Source: Nitrospirota bacterium
GTDB lineage: Bacteria > Nitrospirota > Thermodesulfovibrionia > Thermodesulfovibrionales > UBA1546
Reading direction: 5' to 3'
DNA length: 64,000 nt
NCBI GenBank assembly: GCA_009773185.1
Contig: WPIF01000011.1
Span: forward strand, 1 to 64,000
This document shows, one piece after another, positions 8,662 to 63,599 of this stretch. How positions within the stretch are numbered: position 1 is the stretch's first letter; the number at the start of each line of letters is the position of its first letter. The notes beneath the pieces are model-generated. The model made no database searches. It was given only the letters and a program-made list of their open reading frames with translations, and was not told the DNA's origin. The position numbers were made by a program, and so were the translations under genes.

Positions 8662-9636
8662 TTAGCTCCATCTGCCGGGAATATTTATACCGCAGAATCT
8701 GCACTTCCCGCCCGATATATTGTTTTGTTTGACAAAGTAGCCTGTTCTCTCAATAAGAAGGCTTTTACACTTATGGCAGTATGTATTTTCAGCTTCACTC
8801 CTTATATTGCCACTATACACATATTTTAGTCCAACCTCCATGGCTGTATCCCTTGCATCCCTTATTGTCTCAGGAGGAGTCGGGGGCAGGTCCTTCAATT
8901 TATAATATGGGAAAAATCTTGAGAAATGCAGAGGCACATCAGGCCCGAGATTTTTTACGATCCACCTGCACATCTCTCTTATCTTTTTCATGTCGTCATT
9001 GAGGGTCGGGATAATGAGGTTTGTTATCTCAAGCCATACGCCTTCATCCTTAAGCACGGCTAATGAATCCAGGACAGGCTTAAGCCTGCCGCCGCATATC
9101 CTGCTGTAGAAATCCTCTGTAAATGCCTTTAGGTCCACATCAGCAGCATCCATATATTTTGAAAGTTCCCTTAATGGTTTTTCTTTTATGTATCCGCATG
9201 AATGCATGGTATTTTTAATATTGAACCTCTTTGCAATCTGCGCTGTGTCATACATATATTCATAGAAAACTGTCGGCTCCGTATATGTGTATGTTACTGT
9301 TCTGCAGCCGTAAAACATTGCCTGTCTGACAACGTCGTCAGGAGATAAGTTGATATAATCTGTTTCTTCGGGTTTTGCCTGAGAGATCTGCCAGTTCTGG
9401 CAGAATTTACATCCCAGTACGCAGCCCGCAGTTGCTATTGAAAATGCAGTTGTTGCAGGAAGGAAATGGAAAAATGGTTTTTTTTCGATAGGGTCTATTG
9501 CCACTGAACAGGGCTTCCCGTAGACAAGGCTGTAGAGAACTCCTTCTTTATTTATCCTTGTCCTGCACCCCCCGACCTGATACTCATCAAGAACGCATTC
9601 GGTTGGGCAGAGATCGCACTGAACCTTCTTGCCCAT
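8662..9636 (-). CDS. amrS: AmmeMemoRadiSam system radical SAM enzyme
   Basis: 324 aa. The radical SAM cluster motif C-x3-C-x2-C is visible as GCVLGCKFCQNWQIS (C72, C76, C79). An N-terminal Cys set (CDLCPTEC at 7-14, C24) and a C-terminal CHKC...CRFCG pair are characteristic of the AmmeMemoRadiSam radical SAM branch, related to pyruvate-formate-lyase activases. It is first in the operon with the Tat micro-protein and the Memo-AMMECR1 fusion. The chemistry of this system is not established. ATG 9636 starts immediately at MGKKVQCDLCP without an export signal, unlike Tat-carrying relatives. Upstream lies structured repeat copy A. Confidence 0.92.
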   Translation of the reverse strand: MGKKVQCDLCPTECVLDEYQVGGCRTRINKEGVLYSLVYGKPCSVAIDPIEKKPFFHFLPATTAFSIATAGCVLGCKFCQNWQISQAKPEETDYINLSPDDVVRQAMFYGCRTVTYTYTEPTVFYEYMYDTAQIAKRFNIKNTMHSCGYIKEKPLRELSKYMDAADVDLKAFTEDFYSRICGGRLKPVLDSLAVLKDEGVWLEITNLIIPTLNDDMKKIREMCRWIVKNLGPDVPLHFSRFFPYYKLKDLPPTPPETIRDARDTAMEVGLKYVYSGNIRSEAENTYCHKCKSLLIERTGYFVKQNNISGGKCRFCGINIPGRWS

Positions 9637-9687: not shown

Positions 9688-9815
9688 AGGCAGGGCAAAG
9701 TATTCGAGCGGTTTTATTTTGCCGATAGTCCTTAAGTAGTGTTTAAGGAAAGTAAAGAGGCAAAATACCTCGCAGGCCGAAGGCCGAGAATGAGCGAGGG
9801 TACTATGCCCTGCCT
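9688..9815 (+). repeat. Structured repeat family, copy A (about 128 bp)
   Basis: Outer stem AGGCAGGGCA (9688-9697) pairs with TGCCCTGCCT (9806-9815), and AGTA with TACT just inside. Conserved core: GAGCGGTTTTATTTTGCC then GGCAAAATACCTCG (inner stem TATTTTGCC/GGCAAAATA), a loop hairpin CCTTAA/TTAAGG, a hairpin GGCC-GAA-GGCC, then GAATGAGCGA. Three other full copies occur (20511-20649, 54647-54776, 63474-63599) with different outer-stem sequences that remain complementary within each copy. Confidence 0.8.
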
Positions 9816-10091: not shown

Positions 10092-11312
10092 CTATCCCCT
10101 GCCTTTATAGCACCTGTTGCACCTGATGCACTCGGATATCAGAGGCATTGGCTTGTTACCCATCGGGCAGTCATTCCTGCTTGGATAAGCGGTGTCTTTC
10201 CTTGATAGCATTCCGGTTAATGCCGCAACAGGGCAGAGATACCTGCACCAGAACCTTTCAACCTTCAGATTTGCAAGGAGCGTTATCACAACCAGAGACC
10301 ACGCCAGATAATTTCCGTGAAAAGAAAAGAGCGTGACATAGGCCTCGTAGTTCCCGAATTCCACTCTTTTGCTTATGAAGACTACAAATGCTGCTGCTCC
10401 CAATAAGATATATTTTAAGTCTCTCCATCTGTCATCTGTTTCAACAGGAATAAGCCATTTTTTGAATGGCAGTCTCCCGATAAGTTCAGACAGCGCTCCG
10501 AACGGGCAAAGCCAGCCGCAGTAGAGCCTTCCGGCAATGATTATTGAGATAATGGTGCTTGCAAGGATGCTAAGCCAGAGCCTTGAAGATGACGGCCTTA
10601 GAAGAACGAGATTGAACACATGCAGTATAGAAAAAGGGCTTGAAAGATATAAACCAATGACAGGGATGCTCAGGATAAGGCTTATGTCTCTTGCCCTGAG
10701 AAATTTCTTTGATTTCCTTGTGACAAAATAAAATACGATAACCAGAGAAAAAAGCAGAAGGTACGTAATCCAGCCTGTGCCGTGTGCTTTCTTTGCCTCT
10801 TCGGATTTCACAGGTATTTTAAGTACGTCTGCTGCAACTATTCTTGAAGACTCCTTTATTGTCTTTGCCATTGCCTCAACACTGACAGTTGCCCTGCTTA
10901 TGGCATCTACGTCTTTGTCTGCTTCAAAGGGGTCGTTGACGCTCTTGCCGAGAAACTTCTGCAAATATCCGGCGCTCTCCATATAATGCACATAATTTTT
11001 TGTCTCTTTATGCTCAAGGATCTTTATCCCTGTAATCTTTCCATCAGGGCTTAATGCAAGGAGGATTTTTATCGGGCCTGCATATCCCCTGACCGAGGGG
11101 ACAATATCGTATGTATTAAAGGCTGCAATGCCTTCGCCTGATTGATAATGCGGAGGATTGGTTTTTTTCTCCGGGAACCCTATGCCAGGGGCAACTTCTT
11201 TGAGATATATCCTCTCGTCAGCCTTTTTTTCAGGCAGGAATACCTGCATGCTGTATCCGGCAATGGCTGATGCAATCACTGTTATCAATAAAATTATTTT
11301 AAGGTTTTTCAT
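10092..11312 (-). CDS. FMN-binding and 4Fe-4S polyferredoxin-like membrane protein (NosR/RnfG-NapH-like)
   Basis: 406 aa. N-terminal signal/anchor (about 4-22), then an extracytoplasmic FMN-binding domain with DVDAISRATVS. Thr142 is the expected covalent flavin attachment residue; the usual S-G-A-T is S-R-A-T here. Several transmembrane helices follow (about 183-200, 212-233, 245-265, 300-315, 340-360) with CGWLCPFG, CRYLCPVAA and a C-terminal ECIRCNRCYK, cysteine sets for Fe-S clusters as in NosR and NapH. The family passes electrons across or along the membrane. Start ATG 11312 overlaps the end of the upstream spermidine-synthase-like gene by 14 nt. Confidence 0.85.
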   Translation of the reverse strand: MKNLKIILLITVIASAIAGYSMQVFLPEKKADERIYLKEVAPGIGFPEKKTNPPHYQSGEGIAAFNTYDIVPSVRGYAGPIKILLALSPDGKITGIKILEHKETKNYVHYMESAGYLQKFLGKSVNDPFEADKDVDAISRATVSVEAMAKTIKESSRIVAADVLKIPVKSEEAKKAHGTGWITYLLLFSLVIVFYFVTRKSKKFLRARDISLILSIPVIGLYLSSPFSILHVFNLVLLRPSSSRLWLSILASTIISIIIAGRLYCGWLCPFGALSELIGRLPFKKWLIPVETDDRWRDLKYILLGAAAFVVFISKRVEFGNYEAYVTLFSFHGNYLAWSLVVITLLANLKVERFWCRYLCPVAALTGMLSRKDTAYPSRNDCPMGNKPMPLISECIRCNRCYKGRG

Positions 11313-20008: not shown

Positions 20009-20500
20009 ATTTCTTCGATAATAATTGACGGTTACAACCTGATTGGAATATATCACAAAGACCTTGAGAAAGAGAGGCAGCGGATTATAGATGCCCTTGC
20101 AGAGTATCGGAAAAACAAGGGGCATGAAATCACTGTAGTCTTTGACGGTTGGAAAAACGGCAGCGGAGAAGAAAATCAATCAGTAGTAAACGGAGTAAAC
20201 GTAATTTATTCAAGGCTCGGTGAAAAGGCGGATTCTGTTATCAAGAGGATGATATCTTCTGATAAACGGCAATGGATTGTTGTCACGTCAGACAGGGATA
20301 TAGCTGACCATGCGTGGAGATGCGGCTCTGTTGCCGTATCTTCAGAAGAATTCCAGAATATTTTTGAGAGGCCAGAAAGGATTAATTCAGGTGATTTTGA
20401 GTTTTTAGAGGAAGAGGATTATGAGTCAGAAAAAAAGGGAAGCCCGAGAAAGCTTTCTAAAAAAGAAAAGGCAAAAAGAAGGGCGATAAGTAAGCTTTAA
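20009..20500 (+). CDS. YacP-like NYN-domain nuclease with apparent ATT start
   Basis: 163 aa. The frame reads M/I-S-S-IIIDGYNLIGIYHKDLEK, the standard N-terminus of YacP-like NYN-domain (PIN-fold) RNases, with catalytic acidic residues in IIIDGYN, VVFDGW and TSDRDIAD. No ATG, GTG or TTG precedes IIDGYN in frame: a TGA closes the frame just upstream. A strong GGAGG ends 6 nt before the codon ATT at 20009-20011, so ATT is the most likely initiator. A start at the internal ATG (20249) would delete the catalytic first half. The C-terminus is Lys-rich (RKLSKKEKAKRRAISKL). YacP-type proteins act in RNA decay. Confidence 0.82.
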   Translation: MSSIIIDGYNLIGIYHKDLEKERQRIIDALAEYRKNKGHEITVVFDGWKNGSGEENQSVVNGVNVIYSRLGEKADSVIKRMISSDKRQWIVVTSDRDIADHAWRCGSVAVSSEEFQNIFERPERINSGDFEFLEEEDYESEKKGSPRKLSKKEKAKRRAISKL

Positions 20501-20510
20501 ACTATGACTG

Positions 20511-20649
20511 CTCAAAAGGGGACAATCTTTTCGCTCATTCTCGCCCTGACAAGTCAGGGCTCCGAGGTATTTTGCCTCTTTATCACTTACATGTTTTACT
20601 GTTGGAATATCGGCAAAATAAAACCGCTCAAAGACAATCCCCTTCTGAG
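20511..20649 (-). repeat. Structured repeat family, copy B (about 139 bp)
   Basis: Same core as copy A in the opposite orientation: GAGCGGTTTTATTTTGCCGATA, GGCAAAATACCTCGG and GAATGAGCGA. Outer stem is CTCA-AAGGGGA versus TCCCCTT-TGAG with G-U-type wobbles further in. The P4 hairpin is GCCCTGAC-TT-GTCAGGGC, unlike the other copies in sequence but fully paired. Confidence 0.8.
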
Positions 20650-20666
20650 CTTATGAGGAAATATAA

Positions 20667-21551
20667 ATGAATTTTAAATTCAGACCGGCAGACATTATAA
20701 CAATAATCTTTATCAGCCTTTTGATTGTCATCATAATAGTTTTTAATTCAGCGATACCTAATAGATTTCTCTTAATCCCGATTTATTCTGCCCTTCTCAT
20801 CGTCCAATTCATCCTTGTTAAGGTTAAAGATAAGACCAGGCTCTTGCGGATCATGTATGACCTGATATTCCCGGTAATAAGTGTGCTTGTGCTTTTTGAC
20901 AGCCTTGGCTGGGTTATACATTATATAAATCCTGTTGATATAGACCCTGTGCTCATAAAACTTGATTATGCGCTCTTTGGAAATCATCCGACTGTTATGC
21001 TTGAGGCAGTGATGAACCCTGTTTTAACCGACATTCTCCAGCTTGCATATTCTTCTTATTATTTTCTTCCCGTGACCTTGGGCATTGCACTTCTGAAAAA
21101 TGGCCAGCGGGAAGAGTTTAACAGGTCCTTGTTTTTGATTTTATTCTGTTTTTATCTCTCTTATATCGGCTATATAATCTGGCCTGCGCTTGGCCCAAGA
21201 TTTACCCTCGACCATTTGCAAATGCAAAAATTGCAGGGATTTTTTATTGCAGAACCGATTCAGCAGCTCCTTAACAGGCTCGAAGGCATAAAGCGTGATG
21301 CGTTCCCAAGCGGGCACACAGGCATTGCCCTTACAGTGCTTTATTTAGCATATAAATTTAAAAAAAGGCTTTTTCTGATCTTCTTTCCAATTATTTCTGC
21401 TCTCATATTTTCTGCAGTCTACTGCAGGTATCATTATGTTGTTGATATAATTGCCGGCTTTGGCCTTACAGGTGTGACAATTTTTTTTGGGGAGAGATAT
21501 TATTCATGGTGGGAAAAGAGAAACACTAATGCCTTAAACAAATCCTTATAA
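20667..21551 (+). CDS. PAP2-superfamily membrane phosphatase
   Basis: 294 aa, mostly transmembrane helices. The PAP2 catalytic signature is present as FPSGHTGIA (about 213-221) and CRYHYVVDIIAG (about 252-263), giving the conserved Ser-Gly-His and Arg-x5-His-x3-Asp. The upstream KxxxxxxRP element is not clear. The family removes phosphate from lipid phosphates such as undecaprenyl or phosphatidyl phosphates; substrate unknown here. ATG 20667 has a GAGGAAAT ribosome site. Confidence 0.85.
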   Translation: MNFKFRPADIITIIFISLLIVIIIVFNSAIPNRFLLIPIYSALLIVQFILVKVKDKTRLLRIMYDLIFPVISVLVLFDSLGWVIHYINPVDIDPVLIKLDYALFGNHPTVMLEAVMNPVLTDILQLAYSSYYFLPVTLGIALLKNGQREEFNRSLFLILFCFYLSYIGYIIWPALGPRFTLDHLQMQKLQGFFIAEPIQQLLNRLEGIKRDAFPSGHTGIALTVLYLAYKFKKRLFLIFFPIISALIFSAVYCRYHYVVDIIAGFGLTGVTIFFGERYYSWWEKRNTNALNKSL

Positions 21552-52600: not shown

Positions 52601-53896
52601 ATGGGATTTGGAAGACGTATGTATGAGTTTTTGAAGATGGCGTCCGTTGCTCACGCCAAATGGGACTATGAAGTCTCGATGAGTATCTTAAAGAACCGGA
52701 AAAAGATGCTGATACTTTTGGCTCTGCTTTTGCCGGTTCTTGCAGTAGGCCTGATTGAAGCAGGAGATATGATAGGCGGGAAAACCGCTTATGCCCCTGC
52801 GCATTATTCAAACCTGATATTTGTTGTTTCAATAGCAGTGGGCCTTGCTGCCGGCCTTATAACAGGCTGTATAGGTGCAGGAGGAGGCTTTATTATCACG
52901 CCTGCATTGATGGCAGCCGGTGTTAAGGGAATACTTGCAGTCGGGACAGATGTTTTTCACATTTTTGCCAAGGCAATTATGGGAACCACGGTACATAAAA
53001 AACTCGGCAATGTCTCGGTTAAGCTCGCTGCAGCCTTTCTTGTAGGCTCTGTCGGCGGCACATTCATAGGCGGCGCCATAAACAAAGGGCTATACAATAA
53101 AGACCCTTTGCTGAGCGAGGCATTTATCAGTACAGTTTACGCTGTATTGCTCGGGTTTCTTGGTTTCTATGCATTAGCTGACTTTTTGAAATCCAGGAAG
53201 GCCTCAAGCAGCGCGAGCAGCGGCGGCCATGATGCGCACGGCGGGCCAACAGGCACAACTGAGTTTGCGCTTAAATTACAAAAAGTAAATATTCCGCCTA
53301 TGATAACTTTTGACGAAGATTTTGGCGGAAGAAAGATATCATGGCTTTTTGTGGCAATAGGCGGCCTGATTGTCGGAATGCTGGCTGCAATTATGGGTGT
53401 CGGCGGCGGTTTTGTTACCTTCCCCATGTTTGTTTACATCTTTGGTGTATCAACAGCAACAACAGTCGGAACAGATATTTTTCAGATTATCTTTACGGCA
53501 GGCTTTGCATCCATAGCCCAATATGCTATTTACGGATATGTGTTTTATACGCTTGCTATTGGAATGCTGCTTGGCTCGCTTATCGGCATTCAGGTAGGCG
53601 CGCTTACAACAAAGGTTGTTAAAGGCATTCACATCAGGGGATTTTACGCCATGTCTATTATTGCCGGCTTTATAAACAGGGTTACAACGCTGCCCAAGAA
53701 GATGACCGAGCTTGAGGTCATAAATATGCCCAAGTCTGTTACTACGGCAATAGAGAATGTCGGCAATATCATATTCTGGATTGTTGTAGCTGCTTTTGGT
53801 TTCTGGATTATCAGCAAGTTTATAGCAAATATCGGTACATTAAGGAGCGAGGAAGATTATGTAGCTCCTGTGCTTGTGAAAGAGGAGGCAAAATGA
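52601..53896 (+). CDS. TauE/SafE-family transporter with cytoplasmic N-terminal extension
   Basis: 431 aa from ATG 52601 (AAAAGGAGG upstream). A 45-residue N-terminal segment (YEFLKMASVAHAKWDYEVSM, then SILKNRKKMLIL) precedes TM1. Its spacing (M-x-x...A....E..M.ILK.RK..LL) resembles the motif region of the neighbouring Usp-like proteins (FEDIMAAITFAEAGEHEKAK, LLKGRKTVLL). Membrane halves carry GCIGAGGGFIITPAL and IMGVGGGFVTFPMFVYIFG, with VGTDVFHIFAKAIMG and VGTDIFQIIFTAGFA. Coupled by ATGA to the next gene. Confidence 0.9.
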   Translation: MGFGRRMYEFLKMASVAHAKWDYEVSMSILKNRKKMLILLALLLPVLAVGLIEAGDMIGGKTAYAPAHYSNLIFVVSIAVGLAAGLITGCIGAGGGFIITPALMAAGVKGILAVGTDVFHIFAKAIMGTTVHKKLGNVSVKLAAAFLVGSVGGTFIGGAINKGLYNKDPLLSEAFISTVYAVLLGFLGFYALADFLKSRKASSSASSGGHDAHGGPTGTTEFALKLQKVNIPPMITFDEDFGGRKISWLFVAIGGLIVGMLAAIMGVGGGFVTFPMFVYIFGVSTATTVGTDIFQIIFTAGFASIAQYAIYGYVFYTLAIGMLLGSLIGIQVGALTTKVVKGIHIRGFYAMSIIAGFINRVTTLPKKMTELEVINMPKSVTTAIENVGNIIFWIVVAAFGFWIISKFIANIGTLRSEEDYVAPVLVKEEAK

Positions 53897-54633
53897 TAAT
53901 AAGACATAAAAAACCATTCAGTGTGGGAGTTGTTTTTGCAATATCGTTTTTGGGTATTCTGCTTCTGATATTTTCACCCCTGTTCGGGAATGGCCTGAAC
54001 GGCCTTCAGTATGCAGACGACAGCTTTAATAAGCTTGCAAAGGGCTCCTCTTATTTTATCCCTAAGGTTGCCAAAGGCAATGAGAAGTTCGTGGGAAAGA
54101 CGTTCAGCGTAAGCATCAATATGAGCAAAGAGGGTGATAAGGCAGGAGATGCTGAAAAGAGGGCGGAACTGGCTTCCAGGGTATACACAACTGCAGGAGC
54201 TGTAACAGAGATTAAAGGCGCTGAATTAAAGATCGAAGGAGACCTTGGGAAAGTCCTTGAAGCAGCCTTGCAGGATTCTGATGCCATGTTTAAGAATGAA
54301 GGAGAAAAGATCAAGGCCAAATACGCAACTGACGATGAGAAAAAGATGTTCAGGCAATGGCATAACACTCTGACTAAGATAGACAAGGCATTCAAAAAAG
54401 ATAAGAAGTTTGAAGAGGCAGGCATTGTCTCTGAGGTAACTAAAAAGGCTGTGGAACCTGCCTATAACTTCTATCAGGTTGACGCGAATAAAGTGGCAGA
54501 CCATGCCGGTATGATGTCAGGCCTCCTTATCTTTTACGTTGCTTATACAATGTGGTGGGGATTTGCCATATTTTATATGTTCGAAGGGATAGGCCTTACC
54601 ATGAAAAAGGCAAAGGTCAGGAAAGAGGTATAG
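53893..54633 (+). CDS. TauE-coupled membrane-anchored protein of unknown function
   Basis: 246 aa. TM1 (about 10-31), an extracytoplasmic domain of about 170 residues rich in Lys/Glu/Ala (KTFSVSINMSKEGDKAGD, GAVTEIKGAELKIEGDLGKV, DAMFKNEGEKIKAKY) and TM2 (about 212-235, SGLLIFYVAYTMWWGFAIF). Start overlaps the TauE stop (ATGA). Probably a periplasmic partner of the transporter. I do not recognise the domain. Confidence 0.75.
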   Translation: MIIRHKKPFSVGVVFAISFLGILLLIFSPLFGNGLNGLQYADDSFNKLAKGSSYFIPKVAKGNEKFVGKTFSVSINMSKEGDKAGDAEKRAELASRVYTTAGAVTEIKGAELKIEGDLGKVLEAALQDSDAMFKNEGEKIKAKYATDDEKKMFRQWHNTLTKIDKAFKKDKKFEEAGIVSEVTKKAVEPAYNFYQVDANKVADHAGMMSGLLIFYVAYTMWWGFAIFYMFEGIGLTMKKAKVRKEV

Positions 54634-54646
54634 TGTAAATGTTCAG

Positions 54647-54776
54647 GCAGCAGGATATGGTATTTGAGCGGTTTTATTTTGCCGATATTCTTATAGTGAA
54701 AAATAAGAAAGTCAAGAGGCAAAATTCCTCGGAGGGCAATCGCCCGAGAATGAGCGAAAATGCTATGTCCTGCTGC
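54647..54776 (+). repeat. Structured repeat family, copy C (about 130 bp)
   Basis: Outer stem GCAGCAGGA pairs with TCCTGCTGC and continues inward through ATGG/CTAT with G-U-type pairs. Core GAGCGGTTTTATTTTGCCGATA / GGCAAAATTCCTCGG; hairpins TTCTTA/TAAGAA and GGGC-AATC-GCCC; GAATGAGCGA at the 3' side. Confidence 0.82.
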
Positions 54777-57850: not shown

Positions 57851-57883
57851 GCCCGGGAATGAGCGAGAATGCCGTATCCTGCA
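57851..57883 (+). repeat. Structured repeat family, truncated 3' end (copy E)
   Basis: CCCGGGAATGAGCGAGAATG then CCGTATCCTGC matches the 3' boundary of the repeat (GAATGAGCGA plus right outer-stem arm), but no left half or inner stem is found upstream. Confidence 0.5.
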
Positions 57884-62213: not shown

Positions 62214-63428
62214 TTAAAGCCAGCGGCCTGAAGGATATTTGTTTCGGACCAGGCGTATCAAAGACTGGGAAAGGATTTGTCTGCCCCATCCGTATGGAGC
62301 ATATATCTTCATGAACCTGAATATATCGCGTATAACAGCAAGCTGTTCTCTTTTGCTTAGTTTGCGCATACCTGCCTTGAAATCAGCTTCGTGCGGATTG
62401 CCGAAAATTATCCGGAAGGGATTCCACTGGTCAGTGCAGCGCTTTGCCTCAGAAGTTATCAGCCTGCGGTAGACCTCCTGAACCGGCCTGTTCCTCTGAA
62501 TTGCCCCGACCACTGCCTCTCCGGCTATGGCGCCTGAATGAAGCGCGCAGCTCATCCCCTCGGCCAGCATGTTGAAGAACCCTGCGGCCTGCCCTGTGAT
62601 AAGAACATTGCCTTTGCCGAAAACATAACGGTTTATCAAGGAAGGGCCGAAGTTCTGCGCGCAGCCTTCCAGCTCTTCGGCAGGTTCAAGTTTCACCCCG
62701 TGTTTATCGCGCAGGTATGTCTCAACATTACGATGATACTCATGAAGATTTCCGCCTGAAGGGAAGCCCACACCAACGATCTGCCTCCTGTTGCGCGCAT
62801 GGCTCCATGTATAATGCCCCAGAGCAGGATGGAACCAGAAGTGGAAATAATCCTCGTCGAGCGGGCATTCGATTATTCTCTGAAATTTCTGCCCTACCAT
62901 AAACCAGGGAATGCTCTTCATATAATCCGGATAAATAGAATGCCTGACCCGTGATTTCGGGCCGTCGGCCCCGATAACATAACGCGCCGTGTATTTGAGT
63001 TCAATGCCGGCACGCATTGCCCTGACATGCACGACCTTTCCGTCATCTTCAAGGCCCATAAAAGATGTTTCTTCATGTACGTTAAGGCCGCTGCTTTTAA
63101 CAGCCCAGTAATCCGAGAATTTGCGGTTCAGATGCGGTGTCGGCCCGCCTTCAAAATCCATTGAAATGGATATCATGCTCGGGAAGTGGAAGGTGACCCC
63201 TCTGCAGGAAGTAGGTTCGTGCAGGATGTCACGGGGCAGGGGGCCGAAATTTTCTATAAGAAAGCGGTGACCCCTCGGCGAAAGTATTCCGCTGCATACT
63301 TTATTTCTGGGAAGTTTTTTGCGCTCCAGGGCCACAACATCCAGGCCGGCGTCCACCAGCCTTTTTGCCGCTGCAGATGCAGCAAGGCTGGCGCCTACAA
63401 TTAAAACATCATATTTTTCTTCGCTCAT
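62214..63428 (-). CDS. Geranylgeranyl-reductase-family FAD oxidoreductase
   Basis: 404 aa. N-terminal FAD motif DVLIVGASLAASAAAKRLVD, KLPRNKVCSGILSPRGHRFL, middle ARYVIGADGPKSRVRHS and GNVLITGQAAGFFNMLAEGMSCALHSGAIA (second FAD contact), matching the geranylgeranyl reductase/FixC-like family. Substrate may be an isoprenoid or another unsaturated lipid; the sequence does not decide. Copy D of the structured repeat lies just upstream. Confidence 0.88.
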   Translation of the reverse strand: MSEEKYDVLIVGASLAASAAAKRLVDAGLDVVALERKKLPRNKVCSGILSPRGHRFLIENFGPLPRDILHEPTSCRGVTFHFPSMISISMDFEGGPTPHLNRKFSDYWAVKSSGLNVHEETSFMGLEDDGKVVHVRAMRAGIELKYTARYVIGADGPKSRVRHSIYPDYMKSIPWFMVGQKFQRIIECPLDEDYFHFWFHPALGHYTWSHARNRRQIVGVGFPSGGNLHEYHRNVETYLRDKHGVKLEPAEELEGCAQNFGPSLINRYVFGKGNVLITGQAAGFFNMLAEGMSCALHSGAIAGEAVVGAIQRNRPVQEVYRRLITSEAKRCTDQWNPFRIIFGNPHEADFKAGMRKLSKREQLAVIRDIFRFMKIYAPYGWGRQILSQSLIRLVRNKYPSGRWL

Positions 63429-63473: not shown

Positions 63474-63599
63474 GAAAGGATATAGCACTTTCGCTCATTC
63501 TCGGTCTTCGACCTCCGAGGAATTTGCCCTCTTTATTTATCAAAATAAATATTTTTTGAATATCGGGCAAATAAAACCGCTCAAATACTATATCCTTTC
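63474..63599 (-). repeat. Structured repeat family, copy D (about 126 bp)
   Basis: Outer stem GAAAGGATATAG pairs with CTATATCCTTTC. Inner stem is shifted: TTTATTTGCCC pairs with GGGCAAAT (other copies have TTTTGCC/GGCAAAA), a two-sided compensating change. P3 TCAAAA/TTTTGA; P4 GGTC-GAA-GACC; GAATGAGCGA conserved. Confidence 0.82.

Follow-up and report, generated by a model that had tools for sequence, protein, structure and literature searches.

A dispersed three-armed repeat of Nitrospirota as a probable undescribed family of multi-copy structured RNAs

The window, a stretch of 64,000 nucleotides from a Nitrospirota genome (contig WPIF01000011.1), contains four copies of a dispersed element which looks like a member of an undescribed family of multi-copy structured RNAs and not like an ordinary transposon remnant; bacterial dispersed repeats are usually explained as transposon debris or simple hairpins. 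The element is ~130-145 nt long and three-armed, with a closing stem (P1), a conserved junction and the hairpin arms P2 and P3. A covariance model gave 115 hits in the 2.79 Mb genome to which the window belongs, ~112 of them near-complete. Among 246 sampled Nitrospirota genomes there are 45 carriers, mainly Thermodesulfovibrionales, a few members of other orders and one of another class, each with 1 to >100 copies. Rfam, searched at gathering and at relaxed thresholds, gave no match to the element, and the literature (open-access PMC papers) yielded no description of it. Searches of phages, plasmids and viral contigs found no copies, which is why a viral, phage or plasmid carrier was discarded. 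With modest confidence, and on the grounds of sequence comparison, we consider it probable that the element is a dispersed structured RNA which would act as a decoy of CsrA where CsrA exists, and whose partner would have been lost in the lineage of the window.

The four copies had been noticed in a sequence-only reading of the window, which placed them correctly, with ends accurate to 1-2 bases (Table 1). Of the core that they were said to share, GAGCGGTTTTATTT and CGAGAATGAGCG occur exactly at the four sites; with up to two mismatches, GAGCGGTTTTATTT was found 5 times, compared with 0.55 expected occurrences. The outer arms proved to be copy-specific and self-complementary, as claimed: if G-U is counted, they pair over 17 bp with one mismatch in copy A, 20 bp with one mismatch in copy B, 19 bp in copy C and 17 bp in copy D. 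Likewise, the change from TTTTGCC/GGCAAAA to TTTGCCC/GGGCAAA, which is found in copy D, is genuine covariation. All four copies exist, but the scale was underestimated, as the genome holds ~112 near-complete copies plus relics; besides copy number, the reading had overlooked that copies lie antisense in operons and that GGA loops track CsrA in relatives. The orientation of the genes flanking the window copies is based on a Pfam check of 6 of the 8 flanking frames, one of them just under the cut-off.

Table 1. Coordinates of the element, its parts and related features. Plain numbers are positions in the window; L numbers are locus labels.
Feature	Position	Strand	Remarks
Copy A, whole element	9688..9815	+	three-way junction of P1, P2 and P3; both flanking genes are on the opposite strand
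Copy A, flanking genes	8662-9636; 10092-11312	-; -	radical SAM protein; Fer4_5/FMN_bind protein
Copy A, P1 5' arm	9688..9705	+	AGGCAGGGCAAAGTATTC
Copy A, conserved junction	9706..9711	+	GAGCGG; GC paired with GC of the 3'-side GAGCGA (helix 2, 96.9% paired)
Copy A, P2 arm	9712..9769	+	UUU bulge, UAUUUUGCC/GGCAAAAUA stem, variable loop
Copy A, P3 hairpin	9770..9788	+	
Copy A, conserved segment	9786..9797	+	GAGAATGAGCGA
Copy A, P1 3' arm	9798..9815	+	GGGTACTATGCCCTGCCT
Copy B, whole element	20511..20649	-	antisense to both flanking genes
Copy B, flanking genes	20249-20500; 20667-21551	+; +	NYN_YacP fragment, slightly under the Pfam cut-off; PAP2
Copy C, whole element	54647..54776	+	sense; between 53893-54633 (+) and a Usp gene on +
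Copy D, whole element	63474..63599	-	downstream gene for an FAD-binding protein (62214-63428) is on the same strand
Right-half relic of a degraded copy	57851..57869	+	3' half; GCCCGGGAATGAGCGAGAA
Nested repeat of CCCCTCTTAAATTCCCCCCTTACCAAGGGGGGAACTAAAGGGGGG type	L008:1477-1626, L010:1477-1644, L013:1477-1641, L096:17389-17553 and others		
Hairpin cassette TGCCTGCCTCTATGCA(G/A)AATGCATGGACAGGCA	L085:4476-4596, L109:2239-2371, L115:16770-16891, L121:2437-2572		
Pairs with shared interior and unrelated P1	L094:2517/3947; L088:6991/9527; L124:2217 vs L268:2016		

Each window copy folds as one closed unit, with folding z-scores of -5.8 to -7.6 (n = 4). P1 comprises 17-20 bp, whose sequence is particular to each copy, and is followed by the conserved junction GAGCGG ... 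CCUCGGAG ... CGAGAAUGAGCGA. Directly past P1, 5' UUU-GAGCGG stands opposite 3' GAGCGA-AAA with GC paired to GC, and the sequence makes it likely that tandem G.A pairs flank these GC pairs. P2 is built from GG, a three-base UUU bulge, the UAUUUUGCC/GGCAAAAUA stem and then CC; the size of the bulge is constantly three, as copies which are one U short also miss the matching A. P3 has the form CUC-GGA-G...C-GAG and is followed by unpaired GAAUGA. The tips of P2 and P3 are freely variable; in the window's own family, they often carry other palindromic repeats or hairpin cassettes. Among the P3 loops of the own copies, 44 of 89 are cGNAg triloops in which all four bases are present at N (GCGNAGC), a type that we take to be a DNA mini-hairpin motif; the GNNA tetraloops in P3 of the own family have a pyrimidine at the third position (GNYA), unlike the GNRA loops of RNA.

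The fold is supported by compensatory changes. In a MAFFT alignment of 11 copies, which was made without structure, 94.2% of the cells are paired and double-sided changes are seen in 18 pairs; covariation scores 0.467, a value reached in 0 of 500 shuffles, compared with 0.196 after shuffling and 0.09-0.12 with slid partners. For the 115 genome hits, 94.0% of the cells are paired, 33 of 38 pairs have double changes and the score is 0.466 versus 0.170, a 2.7-fold excess over shuffling. Over four sets, namely the own copies and three sets from other families, 92-94% of the cells are paired and covariation is 2.4-3.9 times the shuffled value; slid structures drop to 0.09-0.15, and 0 of 500 shuffles match the observed score. 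The sequence-only reading had offered a structured RNA as one of two options and had named beforehand, among the findings that would speak against it, a lack of covariation over many copies and a known Rfam family. As covariation is strong over 115 copies and in the three sets from other families, and as Rfam holds no match, this interpretation survives both. A multi-branched RNA fold is thus kept at >100 loci of one genome while its closing stem has diverged nearly freely; the genome itself is thereby a natural experiment on how RNA structure evolves.

The non-Watson-Crick pairs are not symmetrical. In the own P1, 220 cells contain G-U/U-G and 30 contain A-C/C-A; for the outer variable half of P1 alone the ratio is 46:16 (p = 2e-4), and for the three other-family sets it is 55:10, 34:8 and 41:17. 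As the G-U excess would invert on the complement, selection acts on the element's own strand, whatever the direction of the neighbouring genes. In 25 orthologs from the genomes G001-G003, divergence is 4.5% in P1 and 1.9% (10/524) in the junction, compared with 6.4-7.1% in the flanks. The P1 differences between orthologs comprise 18 exchanges of G-U with Watson-Crick pairs and 5 of A-C with Watson-Crick pairs (p = 0.01; a small count). These values suggest that existing copies remain constrained; numbers are small, and gene conversion may add to the low divergence of the junction. The same data bear on the notion that the element is a decaying MITE-like palindrome which has no RNA function and owes its compensatory changes to quasi-palindrome correction by template switching. 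Such an origin would suit a P1 that is a long near-palindrome, the swapping of modules and the many truncated relics. However, correction restores Watson-Crick pairs without strand preference, whereas G-U outnumbers A-C by 7:1 and does so again in other families; moreover, the unpaired junction is the slowest part of the element, and terminal repeats are not conserved as those of a MITE would be. We therefore regard a decaying palindrome as improbable.

The link to CsrA comes from relatives of the window's genome. In copies from other families, the tips of P2 and P3 are NGGAN loops with a C-G closing pair, such as GACAGGATGTC and GGCATGGATGCC; forms are NGGAU, TTGGAU, ATGGAU, ACGGAU and similar. 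The stem-loops of RsmZ that are bound by RsmE follow the pattern A(N)GGAX, are closed by C-G and span 5-8 nt (PMC4005645). CsrA (PF02599) was found in 27 of 68 genomes checked. It is absent from the own genome and from all 16 genomes of the own family (family f1, G000-G015), so that nothing in the window's genome itself points to CsrA; it is also independently missing from several other families of Thermodesulfovibrionales. GGA loops occur in most copies of 17 of 19 genomes with CsrA versus 2 of 25 without (Fisher 4e-8, without phylogenetic correction). Counted by copies, at least one C-G-closed GGA loop is present in 35 of 40 from genomes with CsrA versus 15 of 218 from genomes without, 11 of these 15 belonging to one genome; in the own genome the number is 2 of 112. 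The reverse complement of the GGA motif was seen in 1 of 258 copies. At the same loci of CsrA-containing genomes, GGA is found in 2 of 54 other hairpins (4%), compared with 36 of 41 inside the element. Contrasts within the families f15, f8, f4 and f3, which mostly comprise one copy per genome, pair a CsrA-containing genome with GGA loops and a CsrA-free one lacking them. The two GGA-positive genomes without CsrA are G164, in whose assembly (96% complete) no CsrA was found and GGA is present in 11 of 11 copies, and G237, with a single doubtful loop (a spurious match). Conversely, CsrA is present in G025, where GGA occurs in 1 of 4 copies, and in G118, whose single copy is degenerate and has no C-G-closed GGA loop.

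For the decoy, we propose that RNA of the element strand would be the working molecule. In lineages with CsrA, one or two C-G-closed GGA loops would bind this protein, and the element would be a CsrA/Rsm decoy, i.e. a dispersed multi-copy counterpart of RsmZ/CsrB. In the own family, loss of csrA would have released the loops, and the scaffold would have been kept with other stable loops and another partner, its interior being homogenised by exchange between copies. A wider formulation is more tentative: a phylum-wide high-copy RNA family may have co-opted CsrA or been co-opted by it, serving as a distributed decoy whose tips follow gain and loss of csrA; after such a loss, the scaffold would persist as an arm-exchanging repeat, each copy of which keeps its own closing stem. 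Should the GGA loops bind CsrA, the Csr decoy system of Nitrospirota would consist of scattered repeats and not of a few small RNAs dedicated to this task, and the losses of csrA in several families would offer before/after comparisons of the decay of a decoy network.

With the Csr/Rsm decoys (CsrB, CsrC, RsmX/Y/Z), the copies of CsrA-containing relatives have in common GGA in C-G-closed loops of 5-6 nt, as in RsmZ (PMC4005645). Those decoys, however, occupy one or a few loci per genome and carry many GGA hairpins each, whereas the element presents one or two GGA loops per copy on a three-way junction with a 17-20 bp stem, in up to >100 dispersed copies. TwoAYGGAY RNA (RF01731) consists of two GGA-loop hairpins with a tandem-GA stem and is predicted to bind CsrA outside Gammaproteobacteria (PMC4333381). 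The element resembles it in its GGA-loop hairpins and its likely tandem G.A pairs, the loops being close to AYGGAY without following it strictly; in contrast, TwoAYGGAY was reported from Clostridia, and two copies from CsrA-containing genomes, searched singly with cmscan, gave no RF01731 match up to E 10. Because CsrA and the defining GGA loops are both missing from the own genome, as from the lineage of the window, and because there is no Rfam match, we do not file the element as a Csr/Rsm decoy or as a member of TwoAYGGAY.

Copies are located in intercistronic gaps, typically 10-15 nt past a stop codon and 20-30 nt ahead of the next start. Where the two neighbours are co-directional, the element mostly runs antisense to both of them (74 of 91 contexts, p = 1e-9). 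Relatives show the trend too (16:3), as do other families, whose count of about 14:5 is not significant by itself. The orientation of the copies alternates along a contig and hence follows the local genes. Due to the predominance of antisense copies, an expressed decoy would require antisense transcription. In the own genome, the flanks show no conservation, no T-run and no promoter or terminator signal. An intrinsic terminator was rejected, since no T-run follows P1. The same holds for a promoter in P1 (TATAGT near the junction), as its -35 would fall in the unconserved flank and families such as G205 lack TATAGT.

The repeats bcr, BOX and ERIC are intergenic, dispersed and palindromic. Together with REP/BIME-RAYT they are like the element in these properties, in having about the same size, in modularity and in frequently lying between the genes of an operon; unlike them, the element keeps only the pairing of its outer arms, has a conserved multi-branch junction and shows neither RAYT linkage nor duplications. 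In E. coli, REPs are found close to stop codons (PMC12306157). MITEs are comparable in being short, non-coding, multi-copy and free of an encoded transposase, but in the element the terminal inverted repeats are not conserved from copy to copy, and target-site duplications are absent. Integron attC sites possess variable self-complementary stems, fold from one strand and lie antisense to the neighbouring gene; the element shares all three features, but inspection by eye detected no attC core-site motifs in its conserved parts, and its copies are not arranged in cassette arrays.

High copy number and a presence/absence pattern that differs between close species are also what one would expect of a non-autonomous mobile DNA that moves as folded single-stranded DNA, similar to IS200/IS605 or RAYT elements, with a transposase reading the structure and G.T marking the folding strand. 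The strand-specific preference of G.T over A.C is compatible with this scenario: G.T in single-stranded DNA gives the same sign, so that the strand bias by itself is no proof of RNA. Moreover, Y1 transposase genes are common in Thermodesulfovibrionales, and the P3 loops of the own family, half of which are cGNAg triloops and whose tetraloops are GNYA and not GNRA, are of the kinds that suit stable DNA mini-hairpins according to the DNA-hairpin literature. However, in none of ~30 Y1/RAYT loci examined is the element part of the flanks; the one weak match (24.7 bits, L194) looks like the palindrome of that transposon, and G006 has 10 copies and no Y1 gene. Target-site duplications are absent (flank direct-repeat length 3.36 versus 3.28 after shuffling), as are a flank consensus and a target motif. 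Orientation switches from copy to copy with the local genes, which may speak against lagging-strand insertion, as this should follow replication; GGA loops that follow CsrA require RNA. We thus judge transposition as single-stranded DNA to be unlikely. RAYT/Y1 linkage was rejected, and the palindromes adjoining those genes differ from the element; in G004, a palindromic element (AATGCGGCAGTTGAGCGG...CCGCTCAACTGCCGCATT, L192:1215-1315) whose arms contain TTGAGCGG lies upstream of a RAYT-like gene. An autonomous version with an internal gene was also dismissed, since scanning 563 kb of own sequence for half elements returned truncated relics only. Finally, RNA-level constraint plus dispersal could indicate an RNA-based, SINE-like retroelement mobilised in trans by a reverse transcriptase. 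This is very improbable: the presence of reverse transcriptase is unrelated to copy number, G001, G003 and G007, which are nearly complete and have at least 55 copies, lack an RVT_1 match, and there is no poly-A, duplication or 5' truncation pattern.

In sister genomes (mostly 83-97% identical in the region), many slots are empty or contain unrelated palindromes. Of the own genome, the stretches around its copies were examined. Among the 47 elements of G001-G003 whose flanks map to this sequence, 25 correspond to an own copy that has the same P1. Several more share their gap with an own element of unrelated P1 or opposite orientation, which indicates that gaps are refilled independently; the remainder lies opposite an empty site, a relic or another site. 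Inversion of the interior in place was rejected for the 11 orthologous gaps that hold an element of opposite orientation: their P1 arms are not those of the flipped ortholog (ranks 5-81 of 115), and these cases are consequently independent occupations. In 12 of the 25 orthologous slots, the interior was clearly replaced while P1 and flanks are unchanged. In addition, three non-orthologous pairs have P2 loops that are 97-100% identical and P1 stems that are unrelated; the partners at L094 and L088 are 1.4 and 2.5 kb apart. Between own copies, P1 identity has a mean of 56%, a best value of 93% and a nearest-neighbour median of 80%, with the common pattern RRCAGGRNATRGTNTTT; overall identity of any two own copies is at most 90%. 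We read this to mean that P1 stays with its slot and that the interior is exchanged between copies, P1 being copy-specific because it drifts under a constraint on pairing only. Such swapping of hairpin arms between orthologous loci is an unusual outcome of recombination, which is measurable in closely related strains.

As a second option, the sequence-only reading had named a mobile element, the ends of which would be templated by the target. The three pairs and the 12 of 25 slots bear it out insofar as the interior moves or converts independently of P1; templating of the ends is not established, because the P1 arms are homologous across copies, target-site duplications are lacking and no hairpin-only orthologous site was seen. 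A related proposal is that the interior alone (GAGCGG...GAGCGA) is mobile and enters pre-existing palindromes, P1 being part of the target site. Identical interiors with unrelated P1 and replaced interiors with retained P1 agree with this, and so does a P1-only hairpin with TTTGAGCGAAAA at its tip (L096:11449-11502, -), which looks as if its interior had been deleted between two GAGCG direct repeats or had never entered. On the other hand, the homology of the P1 arms extends to a common consensus beside the junction, the spacing of the L094 and L088 partners is that expected from ectopic gene conversion, P1-only hairpins can arise by loss, as relics with microhomology deletions (L276/L092) indicate, and no relative was found to have a bare hairpin where the counterpart site is filled. 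Entry of a mobile interior into pre-existing palindromes therefore appears quite unlikely, and we retain exchange between copies within slots that keep their P1.

Half-element relics comprise the 3' half in the window (Table 1) and four 5' halves (L083:3584; L120:4335; L108:4877; L010:2721). At L151 (around 1990), L225, L231 and L202, sister species have unrelated palindromic or tandem repeats in intercistronic slots that are homologous to filled sites; hairpin repeats in general thus seem to land in these gaps. The arms themselves accommodate further sequences. The P2 loop of many copies encloses another palindromic repeat (CCCCTCTTAAATTCCCCCCTTACCAAGGGGGGAACTAAAGGGGGG and variants), one hairpin cassette replaces the P2 loop in many copies with differing P1 (Table 1), and a module CTCTTCGCC.C.GGCGAATCCGC..GCGGAGGAGTC is inserted in P3 at the boundary between CCTC and GGAG (L102:6404-6580, L113:5551-5728, L115:2716-2911). 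In G199 (L426, L437, L446), G205 (L391-L393) and G032 (L070), the element forms part of a longer conserved repeat, which adds an extra outer pairing and a hairpin, e.g. CATTGGATTCGACCAATAACGCT upstream and GACAATTC.CGG downstream.
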